This document shows positions 50,414-61,875 of a stretch of 64,000 nucleotides of DNA, one piece after another. Within the stretch, counting starts at the first letter, position 1. Every line of letters starts with the position of its first letter. The notes below the pieces were generated by a model. The model did not search any database, was not told the DNA's origin, and was given only the letters and a program-made list of their open reading frames with translations. The translations under genes and the position numbers were made by a program. Source of the stretch: Thiothrix unzii (lineage in GTDB: Bacteria > Pseudomonadota > Gammaproteobacteria > Thiotrichales > Thiotrichaceae); contig NZ_CP072793.1 in the NCBI RefSeq assembly GCF_017901175.1, forward strand, positions 2,108,001-2,172,000. Reading direction: 5' to 3'.

Positions 50414-50456
50414 GCGAAAGATTATGATCTTTCAGGACTTGGCAGGGTGATAGACG

Positions 50457-50496
50457 CGAGCTGTCACCGCGTCCGTCGTCGAATAACTTGTTGGCG
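50457..50496 (-). repeat. Half attC site (attC-F) at the distal end of the integron
   Basis: On the minus strand the R'' core (plus GTTGGCG, 50490-50496) and the arm reading to GACGGACGCGGTGACAGC match the arms of the sites at 51982, 56202 and 57190. The other half with the R' core is missing, and unrelated sequence follows towards the DUF4143 fragment. It belongs to the toxin-antitoxin cassette. Confidence 0.7.
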
Positions 50497-50509
50497 CATT
50501 AATTTATTT

Positions 50510-50791
50510 TTAAGCAGCTTCGGCGTGTAATTTGATCCCAAGCGCACGAATCACCTTCATCATTGTGTCATAACGGGGTTTTGCACCAGGTGTCAGGGCT
50601 TTATAAAGGCTCTCCCGCCCAAGCCCTGAATCTTTAGCCAGTTGTGTCATGCCACGGGCGCGGGCAACGGTTCTGACAGCCATCAGGAATGTATCAGGGT
50701 CAGGGTCTTCAAGTGCCTCGGATAAATAAGCAGCGATAGTCTCTTCATCATCAAGATAATCAGCCGCATCAAATGGGGTAAATTTTGTCAT
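50510..50791 (-). CDS. Antitoxin of HI1420 type
   Basis: The 93-residue protein matches the addiction module antidote family typified by H. influenzae HI1420: FDAADYLDDEETIAAYLSEA, then a helix-turn-helix MTQLAKDSGLGRESLYKAL and MMKVIRALGIKLHAEAA. It would neutralise the toxin encoded just upstream and repress the shared promoter. Its ATG overlaps the toxin stop by 4 bp (50788-50791). The pair forms one integron cassette. Confidence 0.88.
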   Translation of the reverse strand: MTKFTPFDAADYLDDEETIAAYLSEALEDPDPDTFLMAVRTVARARGMTQLAKDSGLGRESLYKALTPGAKPRYDTMMKVIRALGIKLHAEAA

Positions 50792-51096
50792 GGCGTTGAT
50801 TCCTTGGGCAGATTGTTAGCCATCTCTATGGCTCTCTTGATGTCAGTTTGTTGGGTCGATTTGTCGCCACCCAATAACAATAAATAAACGACATCACCCC
50901 GGCGGGTGAAATAAAGGCGGTAGCCGGGGCCGTAATGGATGCGCATCTCAGACACACCCTCGCCGACAGGCTCACAATCACCAAAGTTACCTTGTTCAGC
51001 CCGCCCAAGCCGTAAAGCAATCTTGGCTTTTGCTTTTTTGTCTCTCAGATTGGATAACCAATCATCGAACTTGTCTGACTTGAGGATGATGTTCAT
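50788..51096 (-). CDS. RelE/ParE-superfamily toxin of HI1419 type
   Basis: The 102-residue protein belongs to the phage Gp49-like/HigB family: FDDWLSNLRDKKAKAKIALRL, NFGDCEPVGEGVSEMRIHYG, then YRLYFTRRGDVVYLLLLGGD. The basic residues R, Y and K in the last strands fit an mRNA-cleaving fold. The toxin precedes the antitoxin, as in HI1419/HI1420. It has its own promoter with an inverted repeat (51103-51130), so the cassette does not rely on an integron promoter. Confidence 0.88.
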   Translation of the reverse strand: MNIILKSDKFDDWLSNLRDKKAKAKIALRLGRAEQGNFGDCEPVGEGVSEMRIHYGPGYRLYFTRRGDVVYLLLLGGDKSTQQTDIKRAIEMANNLPKESTP

Positions 51097-51102
51097 GAGT
51101 TA

Positions 51103-51130
51103 ATTGTATCCGAACAGATACGAATGTAAA
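51103..51130 (-). promoter_or_regulatory. Promoter and operator of the toxin-antitoxin cassette
   Basis: On the minus strand TTTACA (plus 51125-51130) and TACAAT (plus 51103-51108) are 16 bp apart, and the toxin ATG follows 6 bp later, so the leader is very short. An inverted repeat GTATC/GATAC (51106-51110 and 51117-51121) overlaps the -10, which suits repression by the antitoxin. Confidence 0.65.
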
Positions 51131-51174
51131 GGATCATCCCATTATTTGGGTGTTCAAATTTGGCACGCTTTAAC

Positions 51175-51981
51175 CCCTTCATGCGGCATACCCATGATGT
51201 GCCAGCTTTTCGAGGTTGGGCATCAGGCAAAACAGTTTCCATTGCCCGTCCACTTTGGCTTTACTGCGCAAGGTGAAGCGGTGCAGGCGTTTGTTGCCGC
51301 GCAAGTTCCCAAACACGGGTCGACGGTGGCGAAACGTTGGGCGATGATGCGTTTGCCGAGATCTGAATCAATTTTTAGCTTCATCTTTTCAGCGGCTTTT
51401 TCCATGCGTTCCGCTTGGCGCAGGAAGTCAGCGCGTGTGCCGGACTTTTCTTTGCTGGCATTGGACGGCAACTTCACCCCGTCGATGGCAAATAGCTCTT
51501 TGCCGATTAAGCCTTGGCGGTCACAAATCAGCAGCACTTGGGCAAACAGTTTGGCGATCAACTCCCCGGCATTGGCGATGAAGGCCGCCAGCGTGGTGAA
51601 ATGCGACTGGCTGTCACCGGAAACCGCAATGAACAGCATATTCTCACGGCACACCGCTTCGATTTTACGGCTGCTGATAATGCCACGGCTGTAGGCCAAC
51701 AGGATGATTTTGAGTAAAGCCGCCGGGTGAAAGGCTGCCGCTCCCTGCACATCATTCTTATAACGTTGGTGGAAGCCTTCAAGGTCGAGTTCGTTATCCA
51801 CCAAATGGCGTAGCGCGTATTCAAACGTACCGGGCAGGATTTGCCGGTCAAAGTCCAGTGCCAACAGTTTTAAGCCTTGATGCATCGGTTTGTAGCGTGC
51901 CATGCCTGCCTACTCATTAGGGTGCTTGCGATGCCTGATTATCCCACAAAATGGCGGTTTGGAGGGTTATTCTACACCCTC
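51175..51981 (-). mobile_element. IS1182-family element, internally deleted and end-truncated
   Basis: From 51175 to 51981 the sequence matches the complete element at 54414-56201 with few differences. It lacks 798 bp internally (bounded by TCATCT in the complete copy at 54803 and 55601), and it has lost the far inverted repeat. Its transposase-start end still finishes in the terminal repeat TCTACACCCTC (to 51981) and abuts AAC of an attC core, exactly as the complete copy does. Confidence 0.85.
51223..51903 (-). pseudogene. Remnant IS1182-family transposase
   Basis: The frame begins MARYKPMHQGLKLLALDFD and is nearly identical to the transposase at 54600-56123 up to EKAAEKM. It then jumps through the in-frame 798-bp deletion to LKIDSDLGKRIIAQRF. 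A 1-bp deletion near 51315 shifts the frame for the last 30 codons. The catalytic middle is lost, so it cannot transpose itself. Confidence 0.88.
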
Positions 51982-52130
51982 AACCGTCTCGTGTGACGGG
52001 CGCGGCGGGGAGTTTATCGGCGGTCAACCCGTCAACCCGTGGACAGTCTCGTGTGACGGGCGCGGCGGGGAGTCGAACGAGTCGGAGTAGCGGGCTGTCA
52101 CCGCGTCCGTCGTCGAATGTCTCGTTGGCG
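51982..52130 (-). repeat. attC-E, enlarged by an internal duplication
   Basis: On the minus strand it runs from the R'' core (plus GTTGGCG 52124-52130), beside the end of the small membrane protein gene, to the R' GTT (plus AAC 51982-51984), which abuts the deleted IS1182 copy. The arms match attC-B and attC-C. It is longer than they are because the L' arm is present twice, 60 bp apart. Confidence 0.7.
51986..52073. repeat. 28-bp direct repeat inside attC-E
   Basis: The same 28 bp (starting GTCTCGTGTGACGGG) occur at 51986-52013 and 52046-52073, a period of exactly 60 bp. Each copy is one L' arm of the attC palindrome, so the single R'' arm has two possible folding partners. Confidence 0.88.
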
Positions 52131-52172
52131 TATTAATTAGGGTTGCAAAGCACTAATAAAGTGGGCTGTCTT

Positions 52173-52562
52173 TTAATTTGCTGGTCGTGTTATTATTGAT
52201 CGTATCACTTGATAAAGTAGATATAGCATGACAGGCAAAGAGTAAGTCAACATAAAACCTTTAATTATAATAATATCCATCATTAAAAATACAATATATA
52301 AGCTAACTAATATAATCCAAGTTAGGTGAGGGATAGCTTTATATCTTAAGTGGATGAGTAAAGCTAAAGCAGAAAGTATGGCAAGAAAAAGAGCTAAATA
52401 AGATTCAAAGTAATTGGCAACAATGCGAGTAGCTCCATAATCATTACCCATGATAATTTCCCCTTCAGGGGGAGAGAAAGAGAAGTAAATGAAACTGTGG
52501 TAGCTAAAAATCACAATATTGATTAAAAACAAAACCAATATCGTTAAGATTTTTTTGTTCAT
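52173..52562 (-). CDS. Small four-helix membrane protein in a cassette
   Basis: The 129-residue protein has four probable membrane helices at about 5-25, 54-73, 78-97 and 100-123, with a short extracytoplasmic loop after the first. I do not recognise a family. It lies 50 bp behind the HExxH protein gene in the same cassette and just before attC-E. The arrangement fits an immunity or partner protein for that product, but this is inference. Base composition is strongly AT-rich. Confidence 0.6.
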   Translation of the reverse strand: MNKKILTILVLFLINIVIFSYHSFIYFSFSPPEGEIIMGNDYGATRIVANYFESYLALFLAILSALALLIHLRYKAIPHLTWIILVSLYIVFLMMDIIIIKGFMLTYSLPVMLYLLYQVIRSIITRPAN

Positions 52563-52612
52563 AGTTTTTTATGATTGCCGAATTAATTAATATTAAGCTG
52601 CTGAACTTTAAT

Positions 52613-53149
52613 TTACAATTTCTCTCTATAAATTACATTGAAAGCACCAGGGAGTTGAAATGCTTTAATCTTTAATTCTGCTTTGCAAAGCAGAGATGCA
52701 TCATCCATTTTTTCTTCTAAACATTTGATGGTATCCTTATAAGCAGGTCGCTCATATCTAACAGCACTAGCATTGTCCAAATAACCTAGTGCTTTGCCTT
52801 CAGCCTGTCCTTCGCAAATTTTAGGGGCATACTTGCTAAGTTGACTAATATGTATTTGTTCATGTTGAACATAGCAACTATGTATCCCACATTCATCAGA
52901 TATACCTGAACTGATAATCTCTTTAAATCCACCTTTTCCATCACAGGCTGTACCACCCTCTGATTTAATATCGTCTGGTGTAATTATTTGATTTGAAACA
53001 AAAAAGCCATCATTATTCATGCTGCCATCAGCTAATAAGTTTTTTTCAAACTTATTGATAAGTTGCTTATCTGGTTTTGTATCAAGAGCAGAGCTTCTTG
53101 ACACGTTGCGAGTTGTATCGAAAAAATTATTACTAATGCGATCTACCAT
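52613..53149 (-). CDS. Putative HExxH metallopeptidase-like cassette protein
   Basis: The 178-residue protein contains HEQIH at 96-100 in the context CYVQHEQIHISQL, followed by Glu133 in RYERPAY as a possible third zinc ligand. This arrangement is seen in zincin-like domains at the ends of secreted toxins. Six cysteines (69, 87, 92, 112, 143 and 155) suggest disulfides. There is no signal peptide. It shares a cassette with a four-helix membrane protein. Function unproven. Confidence 0.6.
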   Translation of the reverse strand: MVDRISNNFFDTTRNVSRSSALDTKPDKQLINKFEKNLLADGSMNNDGFFVSNQIITPDDIKSEGGTACDGKGGFKEIISSGISDECGIHSCYVQHEQIHISQLSKYAPKICEGQAEGKALGYLDNASAVRYERPAYKDTIKCLEEKMDDASLLCKAELKIKAFQLPGAFNVIYREKL

Positions 53150-53218
53150 GACTGTTATCTTTCATAAAGTTGTCCTTCCGCCAGTGTGGTTAAGATAAGG
53201 AATAAAATGTATCGAATT

Positions 53219-53252
53219 ACCGATAATCGGCATATTTTTAGTGATTATCGGT
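53219..53252. repeat. 10-bp inverted repeat upstream of the HExxH gene
   Basis: ACCGATAATC (53219-53228) and GATTATCGGT (53243-53252) are exact inverted copies with a 14-nt loop. T residues follow on the plus strand, but the nearest genes lie on the minus strand, and it sits 70 bp upstream of the HExxH gene. It is therefore more likely an operator or promoter element than a terminator. Confidence 0.45.
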
Positions 53253-53267
53253 TTTTATCTTAAATGT

Positions 53268-53367
53268 CGCCAACGCCTGGGCTCACCGGCAGCCAAAAGC
53301 GGAGTGGCTTGAAGCGTAGCGGAAAGCCGAGCAGCTTTTGGATGTCCGGTGTAGCCCTTTGTTAGCC
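53268..53367 (-). repeat. attC-D, distinct attC family
   Basis: On the minus strand the R'' core (plus GTTAGCC 53361-53367) holds the stop codon of the gene before it, and the R' core is GTTGGCG (plus 53268-53274). The L arms pair as GGGCTaCACCGG with CCGGTGAGCCC, leaving one unpaired A. This is the extrahelical base expected in attC. CCAAAAGC/GCTTTTGG extends the stem. The sequence differs from the other sites, so this cassette has another origin. Confidence 0.85.
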
Positions 53368-54387
53368 AATTTGTATTTGCCTCACACCATTCCATAGCAT
53401 GTTTTCAATAATCTCTTCAGAACGTGAAATGGTTTTTTCTCTTCTCTCACCATAAGAAATAGAGCTGCGGCTTGTTGTTTTAAACTCGCTAAGATATTCG
53501 AGGTTGAAACGCTCCATATGTGTTTTTGATTCTGTTGCATCTTTCTTTTCTTCGTCGCGCCATACGATCGTAATCCAAAATTCTAATTCGTTTTCCTGAC
53601 CTAGATTTAGCTCACCAATCTTTTTATTGAACGATTGTTTTTTCTTGTCCAGCGTCAATGATATCGAAGGCCCAGCAGAGGTACCTAAATCTTGATAATT
53701 AGTCCATTCAAGTGAAACGCCAAGTAAATCTTTAACAACATCGACAAGGTGTTCAACAGTGAGTTCTGGAGAAAAAGGAATTTCAAGTATCGCAGGAGTT
53801 CGATTGTTGGAGATCCGCATAACCAGGCTAGAATTCTTAACTTCTGATGTATATTGAGATACGTATTGTGGAAAGTAACGTTGATTTGCAAATGCTTGAG
53901 TTACGCGTTCTTTCGCAACAGGAATTCTATAGTCAAACCGATCAGAGATTAAATTTTCGTGGCGAATGCAAAGCTTATCCCAATGCTCTGGGCCTAGAAA
54001 TTCTATTTGCTTTTCATTTAATCCTAGTTTATTAGCTGCATCTATAATCGACGTGAACGCACTGCCAGTATAATTAGCGTTTGTGGCAAACGCGAAAGCT
54101 TCCCATGAGAGCTTTGCTTTCTCTGCAAAAGCAGAGTTTAGAGATTTTATACTTTCAGTTGAACTTAGAGACCCGAATGCGCCTTGTTCATTACTCTTAC
54201 ACTGAAAAGCTCTTTGCGCATTTCTATGAAGTATGTCCACCCCCTTATCGGGTGGCCGAAGCCGAATCAAGGAAGAATCGTTAAGTTCGGCATCCAACAA
54301 AGCATAGCAAAGTGATTCCCAAGCATCGCCGAAGCTTGTGTCTGGTGGATTAATTCGAAGAAACTGTGCTGAAAAATCAAATTTCAC
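53362..54387 (-). CDS. PD-(D/E)XK-like protein with possible ubiquitin-like domain
   Basis: The 341-residue cassette protein shows a nuclease-like N terminus: Glu24 in GDAWESLCYALLD, Asp51 in GVDIL, and Gln62-Cys-Lys64 in AFQCKSNEQG. This spacing is typical of PD-(D/E)XK enzymes with a QxK motif. Residues about 195-270 (ILEIPFSPELTVEHLVDVV, then SISLTLDKKKQSFNKKIGEL and ENELEFWITI) look like a beta-grasp, ubiquitin-like fold. The stop TAA lies in the attC-D core. I infer a defence-type nuclease; neither domain is certain. Confidence 0.55.
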   Translation of the reverse strand: MKFDFSAQFLRINPPDTSFGDAWESLCYALLDAELNDSSLIRLRPPDKGVDILHRNAQRAFQCKSNEQGAFGSLSSTESIKSLNSAFAEKAKLSWEAFAFATNANYTGSAFTSIIDAANKLGLNEKQIEFLGPEHWDKLCIRHENLISDRFDYRIPVAKERVTQAFANQRYFPQYVSQYTSEVKNSSLVMRISNNRTPAILEIPFSPELTVEHLVDVVKDLLGVSLEWTNYQDLGTSAGPSISLTLDKKKQSFNKKIGELNLGQENELEFWITIVWRDEEKKDATESKTHMERFNLEYLSEFKTTSRSSISYGERREKTISRSEEIIENMLWNGVRQIQIG

Positions 54388-54413
54388 GATGCTTCCGTGT
54401 TGTGTTGGCTAAC

Positions 54414-56201
54414 GAGGGTGTAGAAAAACCTAAATCTGATCATCCCATCCAGATCGGTCAGTCATTTTTTTGAACACCCCACACGGCTGACAGGTTTTTT
54501 CACTGTTGCCAACCTCCGGCTTCCTCATAACGCCCTGAATGCCGCCTGATACGGGCAATACGGTGTGTGTTTTCGTGTTTGGCTGCATCATTTCTCCCTT
54601 CATGCGGCATACCCGTGATGTGCCAGCTTTTCGAGGTTGTGCATCAGGCAAAACAGTTTCCATTGCCCGTCCACTTTGGCTTTGCTGCGCAAGGTGAAGC
54701 GGTGCAGGCGTTTGTTACCGCGCAAGTTCCCAAACACGGGTTCGACGGTGGCGAAGCGTTGGGCGATGATGCGTTTGCCGAGGTCTGAATCAATTTTTGG
54801 CTTCATCTGGTCGCTGTGGCTGGGGCTGTCATCACGCTTGCCTTGCAGGAAGGTGACTTGCCGTGCGCGGGTTGTGTCGGGTGTGCGTAGGCATTCGTGA
54901 CGGCGGGTGCAGGGTTCGCAGTCACGCAACGCGCCTTGGAAACGTACCGAGGCATAGCCGTTGAGGGTGCAATTCTTGCCGGTACGGTAGAGGCGTTTGC
55001 CCGCCGGACACAGGCAGTGACTGAGGTCTTCCGCTAACTGGAAATCACCGGGCTTAAAGGTGGTGACTTTGGGCGTTTTGTGGCGTTTGTTGGTTAACGG
55101 GTCGGGCTTTTGTTGGTGGATAGCTTGGTCGGCATAGCGTTCATCGCGTTGACGGTAGTCTTGGTCAGGGATGTAGGCATCAATCCCGGCTTCCGCTAGG
55201 GCTTTGAGGTTGGCTTCACTGTGGTAGCCGTTGTCGGCGGCGATCACCGTTTCGGGCTTACGCATTGAAGCGGTGGCATTGACCACGGGCATCAGTAGTT
55301 CTTGTTCCGACCCTGTGCCGTGGGCTTGGGCTTCGACAATGATTTGGTGCTGGCTGTCGACTGCCGCCACGCCGGTATAGCCTTGTACCACGCCTTTGCT
55401 GGTGGCCATTTTGGCGGATTCGTTGTCGGTACGGTTGGACAAACGGATACCGTTTTTAACCCCTTTGCGGTCTTCGGGGTTGTCCGCCAACCAATCACGT
55501 AACTGCTTGGCTTCGCGTTGTAGGCGTTCCAGTTGTTTGGCTTCGCGTTTGGCTGCTGCCTCATCCGTTTGGCTGGCATCAGTTTGTTGGTGTTTGCCGA
55601 TCATCTTTTCAGCGGCTTTTTCCATGCGTTCGGCTTGACGCAGGAAGTCAGCACGTGTGCCGGACTTTTCTTTGCTGGCATTGGACGGCAACTTCACCCC
55701 GTCGATGGCAAATAGCTCTTTGCCGATTAACCCTTGGCGGTCACATATCAGCAGCACTTGGGCAAACAGTTTGGCAATCAGATCCCCGGCATTGGCAATG
55801 AAGGCCGCCAGTGTGGTGAAATGCGGCTGGCTGTCACCGGAAACCGCAATGAACAGCATATTCTCGCGGCACACCGCTTCGATTTTACGGCTGCTGATAA
55901 TGCCACGGCTGTAGGCCAACAGGATGATTTTGAGTAAAGCCGCCGGGTGAAAGGCTGCCGCTCCCTGCACATCATTCTTATAACGTTGGTGGAAACCTTC
56001 AAGATCGAGTTCGTTATCCACCAAATGGCGTAGCGCGTATTCAAACGTACCGGGCAGGATTTGTCGGTCAAAGTCCAGTGCCAACAGTTTTAAGCCTTGA
56101 TGCATCGGTTTGTAGCGTGCCATGCCTGCCTACTCGTTCGGGTACTTGCGATGCCTGATTATCCCACAAAATAGCGGTTTGGAGGGTTTTTCTACACCCT
56201 C
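54414..56201 (-). mobile_element. Complete IS1182-family insertion sequence
   Basis: The 1788-bp element is bounded by perfect 17-bp inverted repeats, GAGGGTGTAGAAAAACC at 54414-54430 and its complement at 56185-56201. It is flanked on both sides by AAC (54411-54413 and 56202-56204), a 3-bp target duplication. Removing the element restores GGCTAAC next to GTCCGAATT, an attC R' core. So it interrupts attC-C at the very GTT triplet cut by integron integrase. About 170 bp at the left end before the transposase stop hold no gene. Confidence 0.93.
54600..56123 (-). CDS. IS1182-family transposase
   Basis: The 507-residue DDE transposase has the N-terminal DUF772 domain (FEYALRHLVDNELDLEGF, YSRGIISSRKIEAVC). 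The catalytic core includes FAIDGVKLPSNASKE, then VIAADNGYHSEANLKAL. The C-terminal cysteine cluster and end follow (CEPCTRRHECLRTPDTTR, RFATVEPVFGNLRGNK with the catalytic Glu). The frame is intact, so the element may be active. The copy at 51223-51903 is its deletion derivative. Confidence 0.93.
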   Translation of the reverse strand: MARYKPMHQGLKLLALDFDRQILPGTFEYALRHLVDNELDLEGFHQRYKNDVQGAAAFHPAALLKIILLAYSRGIISSRKIEAVCRENMLFIAVSGDSQPHFTTLAAFIANAGDLIAKLFAQVLLICDRQGLIGKELFAIDGVKLPSNASKEKSGTRADFLRQAERMEKAAEKMIGKHQQTDASQTDEAAAKREAKQLERLQREAKQLRDWLADNPEDRKGVKNGIRLSNRTDNESAKMATSKGVVQGYTGVAAVDSQHQIIVEAQAHGTGSEQELLMPVVNATASMRKPETVIAADNGYHSEANLKALAEAGIDAYIPDQDYRQRDERYADQAIHQQKPDPLTNKRHKTPKVTTFKPGDFQLAEDLSHCLCPAGKRLYRTGKNCTLNGYASVRFQGALRDCEPCTRRHECLRTPDTTRARQVTFLQGKRDDSPSHSDQMKPKIDSDLGKRIIAQRFATVEPVFGNLRGNKRLHRFTLRSKAKVDGQWKLFCLMHNLEKLAHHGYAA

Positions 56202-56288
56202 AACGTCCGAATTGACGGGCGCGGCGGGGAGTAGATTGGGCGAAGTCATGGGCTGTCACCGCGTCCGTCGTCGAATAACTCGTTATGC
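56202..56288 (-). repeat. attC-C, interrupted in R' by IS1182
   Basis: On the minus strand the R'' core (plus GTTATGC 56282-56288) stands 2 bp behind the stop of the 126-residue cassette gene. The arms match attC-B (ATTCGACGACGGACGC against GCGCCCGTCAATTCGGAC). The R' core is split: AAC at 56202-56204 on one side of the insertion sequence and GGCTAAC (54407-54413) on the other. Confidence 0.82.
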
Positions 56289-57189: not shown

Positions 57190-57279
57190 GCATAACGTCT
57201 GAATTGATGGGCGCGGCGGAGAGTGATTGGTCAGAGTTGCGGGCTGTCACTGCGTCCGTCGTCGAATATCTCGTTAGCT
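57190..57279 (-). repeat. attC-B
   Basis: 90 bp on the minus strand between R'' AGCTAAC (plus 57273-57279) and R' GTTATGC (plus 57190-57196). The arms ATTCGACGACGGACGC and GCGCCCATCAATT pair imperfectly, with unpaired bases on one side as attC sites need for strand choice. The last 13 or so codons of the gene at 57231-57866 lie inside it. The sequence family is shared with attC-C, -E and -F. Confidence 0.82.
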
Positions 57280-58238: not shown

Positions 58239-59357
58239 TCAACCATACTCCAACCGTTGCGGCGGCAGCGGGTAACGCACCCGCATCATCCCGGTTTTGC
58301 AACAAGGGCAAGGGATGCCATCAAAGCGAGCAATGGCTTCCATTGGCTTGTCTGCCACCATTGGCAGCGTGGGTGCGTAACGGGCAATGGCCTCGCGCAC
58401 TTGCGGCAAGCGGGTTTTGCGGCAGGCATTCGCCAACCAGCCGTAATGGCGGATGCGCAGGAACCCCGCAGGCAATACGTGTTGCAGGAAGCGGCGCAGG
58501 AACTCATCACCCGCCAAGGTCATCACTTTCTGCTGCCCATCGCGGTAATCGTGGTAGCGGAAGCTGACCGTTTCATCGGTGATACCCAACAGGCGCGACT
58601 CACTGATGGCAATCTTGCGGGTGTAGCGTGCCAGATATTTCACCACCGTTTCGGCCTTGTGCAGGCAGGGTTTGGCATACACCACCCAGTCTTTACGCAT
58701 CAGTTGCCCCAGCAATTGTTTAACCTCACCGGGGTGGGTGACACGCGGCAATTGCCCATCCTCGGCAGCCTCCCGCAAGCGGCTGACCAGCTTGCCCCGG
58801 AACAGGCGCGACAGCACTCGGATCGGGAACAGGTAGGTGCTTTTTGCCGGATGCCACTGTTGCGCAGCATCCAATGCCCCGCCGGGGATCAGGCAATGCA
58901 GGTGGACATGCTGGCTGAGGTTCTGCCCCCAGGTGTGCAGTACCGCAGTCATCCCCAATTGCCCGTTGAGGCGTTTGGGGTCATGCCCCAAGGTGTTGAG
59001 TGTGTCCCACACGCTGCGGAACAGGGCATGGTAAACCACCGCTGGATGTAGCCTGACCCAACCGTTCAACTCATGTGGCAGGGTGAACACCAGATGGAAG
59101 TACGGTGCAGGCACAACATTCGCCAGTTCACGCTGTTGCCACTGCTCGCTGGCCTGCTGCTGGCAACGCGGGCAATGGCGGTTGCGGCAGGCATGGTACA
59201 GCGGGACTTCCTCGCCGCATTCCCCACAGCGCAGTTGGAAACCACCCAAGGCAGCGGTGCGGCACGCCAGCAGTTGTTGGCACACCTTGTTCACTGGCGG
59301 TGGCAGCGGCGGCAAGTGTGACTGAAACCGCTGCACCACCTCGGCTAGGCGTAACAT
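58239..59357 (-). CDS. IS91-family Y2 transposase
   Basis: The 372-residue protein has an N-terminal zinc-binding region (RCGECGEEV, HACRNRHCPRCQ). It has the HUH motif in QHVHLHCLIPGG and paired tyrosines in VVKYLARYTRKIAIS, four apart. These define a rolling-circle transposase of the IS91 family. The C-terminal cysteines CPCC may bind zinc too. Its start overlaps the recombinase stop by 13 bp. The frame is intact. Confidence 0.93.
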   Translation of the reverse strand: MLRLAEVVQRFQSHLPPLPPPVNKVCQQLLACRTAALGGFQLRCGECGEEVPLYHACRNRHCPRCQQQASEQWQQRELANVVPAPYFHLVFTLPHELNGWVRLHPAVVYHALFRSVWDTLNTLGHDPKRLNGQLGMTAVLHTWGQNLSQHVHLHCLIPGGALDAAQQWHPAKSTYLFPIRVLSRLFRGKLVSRLREAAEDGQLPRVTHPGEVKQLLGQLMRKDWVVYAKPCLHKAETVVKYLARYTRKIAISESRLLGITDETVSFRYHDYRDGQQKVMTLAGDEFLRRFLQHVLPAGFLRIRHYGWLANACRKTRLPQVREAIARYAPTLPMVADKPMEAIARFDGIPCPCCKTGMMRVRYPLPPQRLEYG

Positions 59358-60214
59358 ACGGCGGCGGCATCCAGCCCCGCCAGCAGATCAATGGCTTGCC
59401 CGCCTTGTTGGGTTTCCGGCAACCAATGCGCATAGCGCATCGTGCTGCTGACATGCTCATGCCCCAACACCTGCTGCAACTGGTGGATCGGCATTCCCGC
59501 CTGCAACGAATGCGTGGCAAACGCATGGCGCAGGCTATGGATGCCGCCTGCCTTGCGGATACCCACTTGCCGCTTGGCGCGCAGGTAGATTTTCTGGGGT
59601 GTCGTCATCGACTGTTGGTAGCCGTAGTATTTCCCCGGAAACAGCCATTGTTTGGGGTGGCAACGCTGCCAGTAAGCCCGCCATTGTGCCAGCAAGGTGT
59701 CGGGTACGGGCACGTAACGGTCTTTTTGCCCCTTGCCCTGCACCACATGCAAGATGCGGCGGCTGCCGTCAATGTCCTGCACCCGGATATTCACCAACTC
59801 ACTGACCCGCAGCCCGCAGGCATAACAGCTCAGCAACAGCAGCCGGTGGGTCGGGTTGTCGGGGGCTGCCACCAGTTGGCTGACCTCCGCCCGCGACAGC
59901 AAATCAGGCAAACGTTGCTGGCGTTTGGGCAAGGCAAAGCGGTAAGCCATAAAATCCGCATCTTCCAGCACCGTCACAAACAGGAAGCGTATCCCGTTGA
60001 AATACAGGTGACAGGTGGAGGATGAAACGTGGCGTTCTTTTAACAGCCACAGCAACCATTGCTGCACCTCATCCGCCGAAATCTTGTCTGGTGAGCGGTG
60101 GTAATAGTGGCTTAGGTCAAGGACGGCTTGGACATAACTGTCGTGGGTTCTGGGGGAATAGCCACGCATCTGCATGGCATCCAGCATCCGCTGGCGCAAC
60201 GGGCTGACTTTCAT
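59345..60214 (-). CDS. Tyrosine recombinase of the IS91-like element
   Basis: The 289-residue protein has an N-terminal core-binding domain (MQMRGYSPRTHDSYVQAV) and a catalytic domain with Arg in YACGLRVSELVNIRV. It also has HSLRHAFATHSLQAG, LGHEHVSSTMRYAH with the nucleophile Tyr. It lacks the extra segment that marks integron integrases, so it belongs to the IS. AGGAG lies 8 nt before ATG 60214. It is probably co-transcribed with the transposase. Confidence 0.9.
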   Translation of the reverse strand: MKVSPLRQRMLDAMQMRGYSPRTHDSYVQAVLDLSHYYHRSPDKISADEVQQWLLWLLKERHVSSSTCHLYFNGIRFLFVTVLEDADFMAYRFALPKRQQRLPDLLSRAEVSQLVAAPDNPTHRLLLLSCYACGLRVSELVNIRVQDIDGSRRILHVVQGKGQKDRYVPVPDTLLAQWRAYWQRCHPKQWLFPGKYYGYQQSMTTPQKIYLRAKRQVGIRKAGGIHSLRHAFATHSLQAGMPIHQLQQVLGHEHVSSTMRYAHWLPETQQGGQAIDLLAGLDAAAVCYA

Positions 60215-60313
60215 GATGGGTTCTCCTGTAAATGTCCATCTATCGGACACTTAAAGTGTGGCTCATCAGAGGAAAATCGTTGGGAATCAGTGGGCTACCG
60301 CGTTAGCGGTTTA

Positions 60314-60456: not shown

Positions 60457-61875
60457 ATGTTAATGGATAAGAAGCATACACGAAGTCCCGTAGAACCAGC
60501 AACCTCGTATTCTCATGAGTTCTGGGAAAACTACACACTTTTTCTTGTTAAACAAGGTGTTACTCAGAAGTATGTGACGTGGTATGTATTGCGTACTAAG
60601 CAGTACATTGCCTACTTTCCTGACGATCACATCCGTACCCATACACCCCAGCAAGTAGAAGAATTTCTCAACAAAGTAGGGCGTGAAGTCAACTTGAAAG
60701 CGTGGCAATTTGGGCAAGTCGTCGATGCTATACGGATTCTGTTTTGTCTGGCATTGAAGAAAAGTTGGGCAAACGACTTCGATTGGGAATACTGGTCAGC
60801 GTCGGCGAAAAAGTTAGATGCCAATCATGCCACTGTTGCCCGTGATTACACCGATGCCCTCGAAGGTCTGGAAATGCTCGAAGGTGAAGAGCGTTGTTCC
60901 AATGAGCTTTACCAACGTTACCAACCTGCATTAGCGGAAGTGGTCAAAACGGTGCGTCTCAAAAATTATGCGATGCGCACCGAGCAAACCTATCGTAGTT
61001 GGATTGCCCGCTTTTTCTATTTCCACAAACCCAATGACGCGCATGATTTAGGGGGTAAAGAAGTTAAACAATACCTCGAATACCTTGTGCTTAAACGCAA
61101 TGTGTCAGTTTCTACTCAAAAACAGGCATTAAATGCGATAGCGTTCTTGTTTAATCAAGTGTGGAAACGACCGCTGGATGATTTGGGTGACTTTATCGGT
61201 TCAAAACGTCCGCGTAAATTGCCAGTGGTGTTGTCCCGCGACGAAGTACGCCGCGTCTTCCAGCACCTCAAAGGGACGCACCACTTAATGACCGGTTTGC
61301 TCTACGGTGGCGGGCTACGTCTCATGGAATGCGTGACTTTACGGATTCTGGATGTGGATTTCGATTACAACCAATTGCTGATCCGCAATGCCAAAGGTTT
61401 TAAAGATCGGATTGTGCCATTGCCCGAACGTTTCAAAGAAGCTCTCAAACAACAAATCGCTTTTGTTGAGCGTCAACACCAAATGGATTTGAAAAATGGG
61501 TTTGGTGAGGTGTATCTGCCCGATGCCTTGGGGAGAAAATACCAAAATGCGGCGAAAGAACTACGCTGGCAATATGTGTTTCCTTCCAGTGGTGTCGCTG
61601 CTGATCCACGTTCGGGCGTGGTGCGCCGCCATCATGTGCATGAAACCAGTTTGCAAAAAATCATCCGTCGGGCAGTGAAACAGGCGGGAATTACCAAACA
61701 CGCTACCAGTCACACTTTTCGTCACTCGTTTGCCACCCATTTGCTGGAGTCTGGTTACGACATCCGTACCGTTCAGGAGTTACTGGGACATTCGGATGTA
61801 TCGACGACGATGATTTATACCCATGTGTTGAATACGCCCGGTATCAGTGTACGTAGTCCCGCCGATATGATCTAA
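60457..61875 (+). CDS. intI: Integron integrase IntI with N-terminal extension
   Basis: The 472-residue tyrosine recombinase carries the integron-specific insertion (LPDALGRKYQNAAKELRWQY, VFPSSGVAADPRSGVVRRHH) before the catalytic end. Catalytic residues are Arg near 289 (GGGLRLMECV), H419 and R422 in HTFRHSF, H445 and Tyr454 (TMIYTHVLN). Normal IntI proteins have 320-340 residues and start at about the motif AMRTEQTYRSWIARFFYFH (near 170). Here about 130 extra residues precede it (FWENYTLFLVKQGVTQKYVT and so on), looking like a second SAM-like core-binding domain. It points away from the cassettes, as usual. Confidence 0.93.
   Translation: MLMDKKHTRSPVEPATSYSHEFWENYTLFLVKQGVTQKYVTWYVLRTKQYIAYFPDDHIRTHTPQQVEEFLNKVGREVNLKAWQFGQVVDAIRILFCLALKKSWANDFDWEYWSASAKKLDANHATVARDYTDALEGLEMLEGEERCSNELYQRYQPALAEVVKTVRLKNYAMRTEQTYRSWIARFFYFHKPNDAHDLGGKEVKQYLEYLVLKRNVSVSTQKQALNAIAFLFNQVWKRPLDDLGDFIGSKRPRKLPVVLSRDEVRRVFQHLKGTHHLMTGLLYGGGLRLMECVTLRILDVDFDYNQLLIRNAKGFKDRIVPLPERFKEALKQQIAFVERQHQMDLKNGFGEVYLPDALGRKYQNAAKELRWQYVFPSSGVAADPRSGVVRRHHVHETSLQKIIRRAVKQAGITKHATSHTFRHSFATHLLESGYDIRTVQELLGHSDVSTTMIYTHVLNTPGISVRSPADMI

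Follow-up and report, generated by a model that had tools for sequence, protein, structure and literature searches.

A 64,000-nt stretch of the Thiothrix unzii genome (contig NZ_CP072793.1, positions 2108001-2172000 of the 3.72-Mb genome; hereafter the window) contains an integron, two of whose attC sites carry copies of the same insertion sequence (IS). We consider it probable (roughly 80%) that this element belongs to a branch of DDE insertion sequences adjacent to the named IS1182 family, and that it prefers the R′ core (GTT) of attC, inserts there in one orientation and duplicates the 3-bp core. Sequence comparison establishes where the element ends, that 3 bp are duplicated, that insertions recur at attC in many genomes and that the sites share a short motif, mostly CGTTR. 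An original prediction, drawn from the window itself, had proposed that the element targets attC. Integron integrases recognize attC via its fold rather than its sequence, and recombine at G/TT.

The complete copy has perfect inverted ends of 17 bp and reads GGACGTT/GAGGGTGTAGAAAAACC...GGTTTTTCTACACCCTC/GTTAGCC on the transposase strand (slashes mark the element's ends; coordinates in Table 1). As had been predicted, AAC (GTT on the transposase strand) adjoins it on both sides, and the flanks, once joined, rebuild the attC R′ core ...CGCGCCCGTCAATTCGGACGTTAGCC. Full-length homologues with 86-89% DNA identity were found in five other Thiothrix-genus genomes, the similarity stopping directly beyond the element ends.

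Table 1. Coordinates of the insertion sequence, its target sites and the integron in the window.
Feature	Position	Strand	Basis
Complete IS1182-like element, 1,788 bp	54414..56201	-	Full-length homologues in five other Thiothrix-genus genomes; divergence immediately beyond ends
Transposase gene, 507 aa, candidate DDE residues D141, D297, E461	54600..56123	-	Open reading frame (ORF); Pfam, NCBIfam, conserved acidic columns
Terminal inverted repeat, transposase 5′ side (GAGGGTGTAGAAAAACC)	56185..56201	-	Sequence reading
Terminal inverted repeat, transposase 3′ side, same 17 bp	54414..54430	+	Sequence reading
GTT target triplet, left copy = R′ core of attC-C	56202..56204	-	Sequence reading
GTT target triplet, right copy, continues as GTTAGCC	54411..54413	-	Sequence reading
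attC-C, R″ to R′, interrupted at R′ by complete element	56202..56286	-	Covariance model R1 match 56198-56286, 97.6 bits
Deleted copy, with element positions 183-395 fused to 1188-1788 and no right end	51175..51981	-	BLAST
GTT adjoining intact end of deleted copy	51982..51984	-	Sequence reading (AAC on + strand)
attC-E, irregular: full attC 52041-52128, then second copy of own 3′ half, occupied by element	51982..52128	-	R1 79.0 bits; repeat family D4
Unoccupied attC of next cassette	57190..57277	-	R1 79.8 bits
Integron integrase gene intI	60931..61869 (genome 2168931-2169869)	+	TIGR02249 432.9 bits, above cut-off

The transposase matched DDE_Tnp_1_6, DUF772 and DDE_Tnp_1 above the Pfam gathering thresholds. 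Its best NCBIfam match was the IS1182 model NF033551 (2.4 × 10−78, residues 12-502 of 507), for which it scored 264.2 bits and missed the equivalog cut-off of 270 bits. Six further branch members reached 204.6-268.7 bits, i.e. all seven full-length branch proteins scanned fell short of the cut-off, compared with 429.3 and 450.4 bits for two members outside the branch. In a tree of 26 proteins, 18 branch members were split from eight other IS1182 relatives with 99/98 support, the long outside branches making the rooting unsure. Because the branch proteins score under NCBI's cut-off and the tree sets them apart, we call the element IS1182-like; the transposase is best placed in this way and not as a full family member. 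The name IS1182 used in the original prediction thus stands as the best-matching family, and is approximate. In an alignment including the eight outside members, the acidic columns corresponding to D141 (26 of 26), D297 (25 of 25) and E461 (23 of 24) were conserved, for which a catalytic role is predicted. No IS110 model was among the Pfam and NCBIfam matches (DDE_Tnp_1-type, IS1182, IS5 and ISNCY models), in agreement with the earlier statement that the element belongs to a different IS family from the IS1111-attC elements.

The genome contains three copies, i.e. the complete one, the deleted one of the window and a third at 1982406-1983395 of the same contig, 176 kb away. All three begin at an attC core and have different left flanks; the complete and third copies differ in their right flanks as well. 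The third copy lies in an isolated attC, the sole genus-motif attC in 17 kb. The deleted copy has suffered an internal deletion as well as the loss of its right end, and is 96-97% identical to the complete copy where aligned. It ends, as had been noticed, at the same terminal base beside AAC and in the same orientation, abutting the second 3′ half of the irregular attC-E (..GAGACGGTT up to the junction, with one extra G). The 395/1188 deletion junction is common to the deleted and third copies, which show 95% identity to each other. Of the proposal that the window records two independent insertions, the part concerning the sites is upheld by flanks that differ on both sides; the deleted copy, sharing its junction with the third, is not a fully independent element. 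Seven of the 18 attC-motif matches in this genome bear such an end at R′, namely the three IS copies, two mini-elements and two ends for which no right end was found nearby.

Two further details concern the deleted copy. The 31-nt repeat (D4) in attC-E recurs 60 bp apart, an unusual attC duplication exactly where this copy landed. Beside its truncated end (51130-51180), both GATCATCCCAT and GGGTGTTCAAA are present; the former is shared with the right end of the complete copy in the same sense, the latter in inverted sense. To judge from this arrangement, the right end was apparently rearranged and not just truncated.

Other copies were collected and their flanks read, as the original prediction had suggested. 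To survey insertion sites independently of their surroundings, 16 Thiothrix genomes were searched with a pattern for the left end of the element that contained no flank. It gave 33 matches in 11 genomes; one (G012:C26:4934) was the right end of a 100-bp mini-element and was excluded. The remaining 32 left ends, which include two from mini-elements (G009 and G010), were preceded by GTT in 29 cases and by ATT in three. An attC site adjoined 17 of the 32 left ends, or 15 of 18 when T. lacustris was set aside. Thirteen of these 17 calls came from covariance model R1 or, once, from a flank identical to a modelled flank; R1 was derived from 38 unoccupied attC sites in G013 and G005, two genomes that gave no match to the left-end pattern. 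The deleted copy of the window sits at the duplicated 3′ half, ~60 bp past its R1 match. One call was a weak R1 match (L030, 14.8 bits, E = 0.13), and three were other attC types recognized by score (L008, 14.8; L024, 14.1; and, weaker, L007, 10.4). One attC insertion common to T. lacustris and G015 probably represents a single ancestral insertion. Every Thiothrix attC insertion surveyed occupied R′, in one case a duplicated R′, and the orientation of the transposase end was always the same. No insertion at R″ was found in this survey, a weak comparison given that just 12 of 77 array R″ sites have CGTTR on the bottom strand.

Behind the right ends in Thiothrix (n = 31), the triplet was GTT in 26 cases, ATT in four and CTT in one. 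When left and right ends were paired, 39 pairs passed a filter demanding TT at the end of both flanks, and three of these were discarded as spurious (mismatched triplets, poor ends). The triplets matched in the other 36 pairs, 34 being GTT/GTT and two ATT/ATT. Since ATT pairs exist, the triplet belongs to the target and not to the element. We interpret the matching triplets as a 3-bp target duplication made by the DDE transposase.

Relatives with 38-83% identity in other Gammaproteobacteria showed the same pattern at unrelated attC sequences. A class-wide protein search (E ≤ 1e-60) detected relatives in 17 of 368 other genomes, a phylum-wide search of 398 genomes (E ≤ 1e-70) added one genome, and plasmid records supplied three more relatives. 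Outside Thiothrix, 22 left ends were readable (including loci L012 and L015); seven loci had no readable left flank (L052, L056, L058, L065, L066, L069 and L076) and, together with the second element of a tandem in L057, were left out of the counts. Calls of attC were based on alignment scores and the covariance model. Ten of the 22 left ends reached a generic attC score of at least 10, five others were recognized as attC by eye (L059, L061, L063, L068 and L071), three were uncertain (L053, L062 and L163) and four were not attC (L012, L073, L075 and L077). Among control CGTTR sites (n = 2,004), ~2.5% scored at least 10, many of the top controls resembling real attC; among all GTT-flanked ends scored, including those of Thiothrix, 26 of 56 did so. 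As attC sequences vary widely among genera, the common part is the core and the fold. At one locus (L053, Catenovulum) the transposase lies in the opposite orientation, and three loci (L250, L251 and L257) have further attC-like sites or an integrase-like gene nearby. In favour of the attC preference, the gene intI was present in 14 of 18 non-Thiothrix host genomes versus 7 of 20 comparison genomes (p = 0.011). Two other ways of recognizing attC were set aside: a plain hairpin energy in which AAC and GTT were forced to pair discriminated attC poorly, and a minimum free energy test requiring a paired GTT found a fold in just 10 of 26 sites, one of them non-attC (L166), and was not used for counts.

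In L057 (genome G276), two elements stand head to tail, the second beginning at the GTT behind the first. The duplicated core may have been reused for the second insertion.

The same ends also delimit nine mini-elements of 98-258 bp, all of them at attC, one with ATT as its core (L148). Searches with flank-free end patterns placed five of five mini-elements in attC (L111, L119, L146, L148 and L081); the remaining ones were found via attC-motif searches or neighbours and are therefore a biased sample. Presumably, mini-elements were moved in trans.

To estimate the expectation by chance, CGTTR sites were counted on both strands of the window. The 390 sites found correspond to ~6,094 per Mb and, by extrapolation, to ~22,700 per genome. 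The genus attC motif matched 18 times in the T. unzii genome, so that attC-motif cores make up ~0.08% of the estimated CGTTR sites. The chance probability of finding all three T. unzii copies in attC is ~5 × 10−10. For T. lacustris, with three motif matches and a calculation based on four attC sites (the three matches and one variant), the chance probability of at least 2 of 14 left ends in attC is ~3 × 10−6. We draw no support from a figure of 14 of 14 obtained for R′ cores inside arrays, since it is partly circular.

Several observations weigh against a preference of the element for attC. The other 15 of the 32 Thiothrix left ends lie at plain CGTT, AGTT or ATT sites in which no attC was recognized: 12 belong to T. 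lacustris (14 left ends in total, two in attC), and one each to G001, G002 and G006. Copies at sites lacking attC, which had been named in advance as a finding that would speak against targeting, therefore do occur, 12 of them in a single genome. Because of these 15 copies, attC is preferred and not obligatory; its use is a strong preference, not strict specificity, and as such the proposed targeting agrees with the 17 Thiothrix ends at attC and with the distant relatives in other genera. Two of the Thiothrix calls (L007 and L030) are weak, and the five relatives mentioned above were assigned to attC by eye only. The generic attC score overlooks true sites, ~10% of 69 array attC sites having scored 0. 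The comparison genomes used for intI were unmatched and taken by handle order, and three of them (G047, G050 and G056) have weak DNA matches to the element. Within Thiothrix, G006, which carries a full copy at ATT, had no intI at the threshold used; G011 has intI. The 17 non-attC sites (15 of Thiothrix and two of G276) showed no excess of hairpins (mean z 0.01 vs −0.48 in 300 controls), and a hairpin is thus not required. That it adds to the preference is what we infer, and the data leave some room for relaxed selection at attC.

The main rival explanation builds on this last point. The transposase might hit any CGTTR, copies persisting mainly in attC since arrays tolerate them. The motif and the 3-bp duplication are indeed identical at attC and non-attC sites, and in T. 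lacustris, where the expansion is perhaps recent, 12 of 14 left ends lie away from attC. Cassette bodies, however, should tolerate copies too. Of the 419 CGTTR sites in 120 kb of IS-free cassette arrays, R′ cores account for 77, and at sites of the kind represented by the other 342 no copy was recognized in Thiothrix. None of the 15 non-attC copies in Thiothrix was seen beside a genus-motif attC, a motif that other attC types could have escaped; no match to it lies within 16.6-19.9 kb around the three copies outside T. lacustris, and the 12 of T. lacustris are on contigs other than those with its three motif matches (C1, C11 and C39). A possible exception is the G276 copy L073, ~3.7 kb from an attC-like site. 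With the third T. unzii copy in an isolated attC and T. lacustris itself enriched for attC, survival after indiscriminate insertion appears unlikely as the source of the pattern.

It is conceivable, too, that the integron integrase captured circular IS forms at attC, in which case the flanking GTT would represent the crossover core instead of a duplicated target. Recombination by IntI would give the same GTT-IS-GTT layout, and the junction GTTGAGG resembles GTTRRRY. Against this, ATT on both sides of L167 and L148, and GTT insertions that lack attC and have the same ends, fit the 3-bp duplication of a DDE transposase; moreover, the inverted ends match each other and the candidate DDE residues are conserved. 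We regard such capture as very improbable. Even less credible is that both window copies descend from one insertion, duplicated together with the cassette segment or by recombination. They share array, orientation and most of their sequence, and the deleted copy shares its junction with the third copy, but the left attC and the right flank differ between the two window copies, one copy in this genome is full length and two have the common deletion, and other genomes provide many further sites. Duplication of the whole cassette segment, the alternative named in the original prediction, is excluded by the flanks.

Returning to an attC-preferring DDE transposase, its minimum requirement would be a short duplex motif, approximately (A/C)CGTT(A/G), and the leaky insertions elsewhere would be explained by this need for a short duplex motif only. 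At attC, insertion would be enhanced, by several hundred fold or more as a rough estimate, through a feature that attC sites have in common although their sequences are unrelated. The simplest candidate is the extruded hairpin with the core at its 3′ foot; alternatively, bound integrase could act as the enhancer. Strand transfer would have to occur on linear duplex DNA at the foot of the hairpin, given that simple insertions flanked by a 3-bp duplication result. As GTT is present twice and reads on into the element as GTTGAGG, near GTTRRRY, the upstream attC may remain functional and the element may travel with the next cassette. Possibly, the whole branch of DDE elements evolved to read folded attC or the integrase-attC complex, whatever its sequence, and the branch, together with its mini-elements, would use cassette arrays as a renewable landing pad; here we see the balance tilting slightly towards doubt.

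Eight IS1182 relatives outside the branch (25-28% identity, from plasmids) were read for comparison. None of seven had GTT at both ends beside attC, and the eighth (L247) was not delimitable. Three showed GGTC on both sides. Two ISPpu20-type copies occupied an identical position, the loop that separates the arms of a terminator-like palindrome, and were flanked left and right by TTAAT. Use of attC therefore looks like a feature of this branch, and a liking for palindromes is seen more widely in the IS1182 family, both in the ISPpu20-type copies and in published work on IS1272. IS1272, whose transposase family is homologous and which is discussed with TnSha1, targets stem-loops and removes them wholly or partly without target duplication (PMC5678879, PMC4923244), whereas the branch described here keeps the hairpin and duplicates the 3-bp core at its foot. 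Stem-loop replacement of the IS1272 type was not encountered among the 36 end pairs, in which the GTT or ATT triplets match, nor among the attC-borne copies, which keep attC on their left.

Recurrent insertion at attC, here 17 of 32 Thiothrix left ends, recalls the IS1111-attC group of the IS110/IS1111 family (e.g. ISKpn4 and ISPst6), which lies at one end of attC, itself a potentially folded structure, and, as in that family generally, uses a DEDD transposase guided by a seekRNA (PMC11187229). The branch differs in its DDE-type transposase, outer inverted ends, 3-bp duplication, short CGTTR motif and leaky off-target sites. Group IIC-attC introns are likewise mobile elements at cassette attC sites (PMC9229058, PMC7923331), but are ribozyme/reverse-transcriptase elements and not DDE transposons. 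The ISAjo2 group of the IS1202 family offers a parallel of an IS in one orientation beside the site of another tyrosine recombinase, on the XerC side of dif/pdif (PMC10132070); both IS family and target site are different. A Shewanella survey records no IS interrupting attC sites there (PMC9229058). No report of IS1182-like elements at attC was found in the literature searched, the coverage of which excluded bioRxiv and most subscription journals.

To our knowledge, the branch would be a third kind of attC-inserting element, after the IS1111-attC elements and the group IIC-attC introns. A second, unrelated enzyme family favouring the same core as the integrase would provide an independent probe of attC in cells, and, next to IS1272, a tractable example of DDE transposition that is biased by structure. 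Genomes also contain attC-borne mini-elements, which cassette annotation may overlook.

The remainder of the integron shows some further peculiarities. Its cassettes are read on the minus strand, opposite to intI. A damaged attC (50420-50494; 31.9 bits with the covariance model) has its 3′ half exchanged for other sequence. The deleted copy is followed by a two-gene cassette (50510-51096) with ORFs of 102 and 93 aa that are toxin-antitoxin-like in appearance. Between intI and the cassettes (58239-60250) lie a putative IS91-type transposase and a tyrosine recombinase-like ORF; the latter, of 301 aa, occurs five times in the genome.

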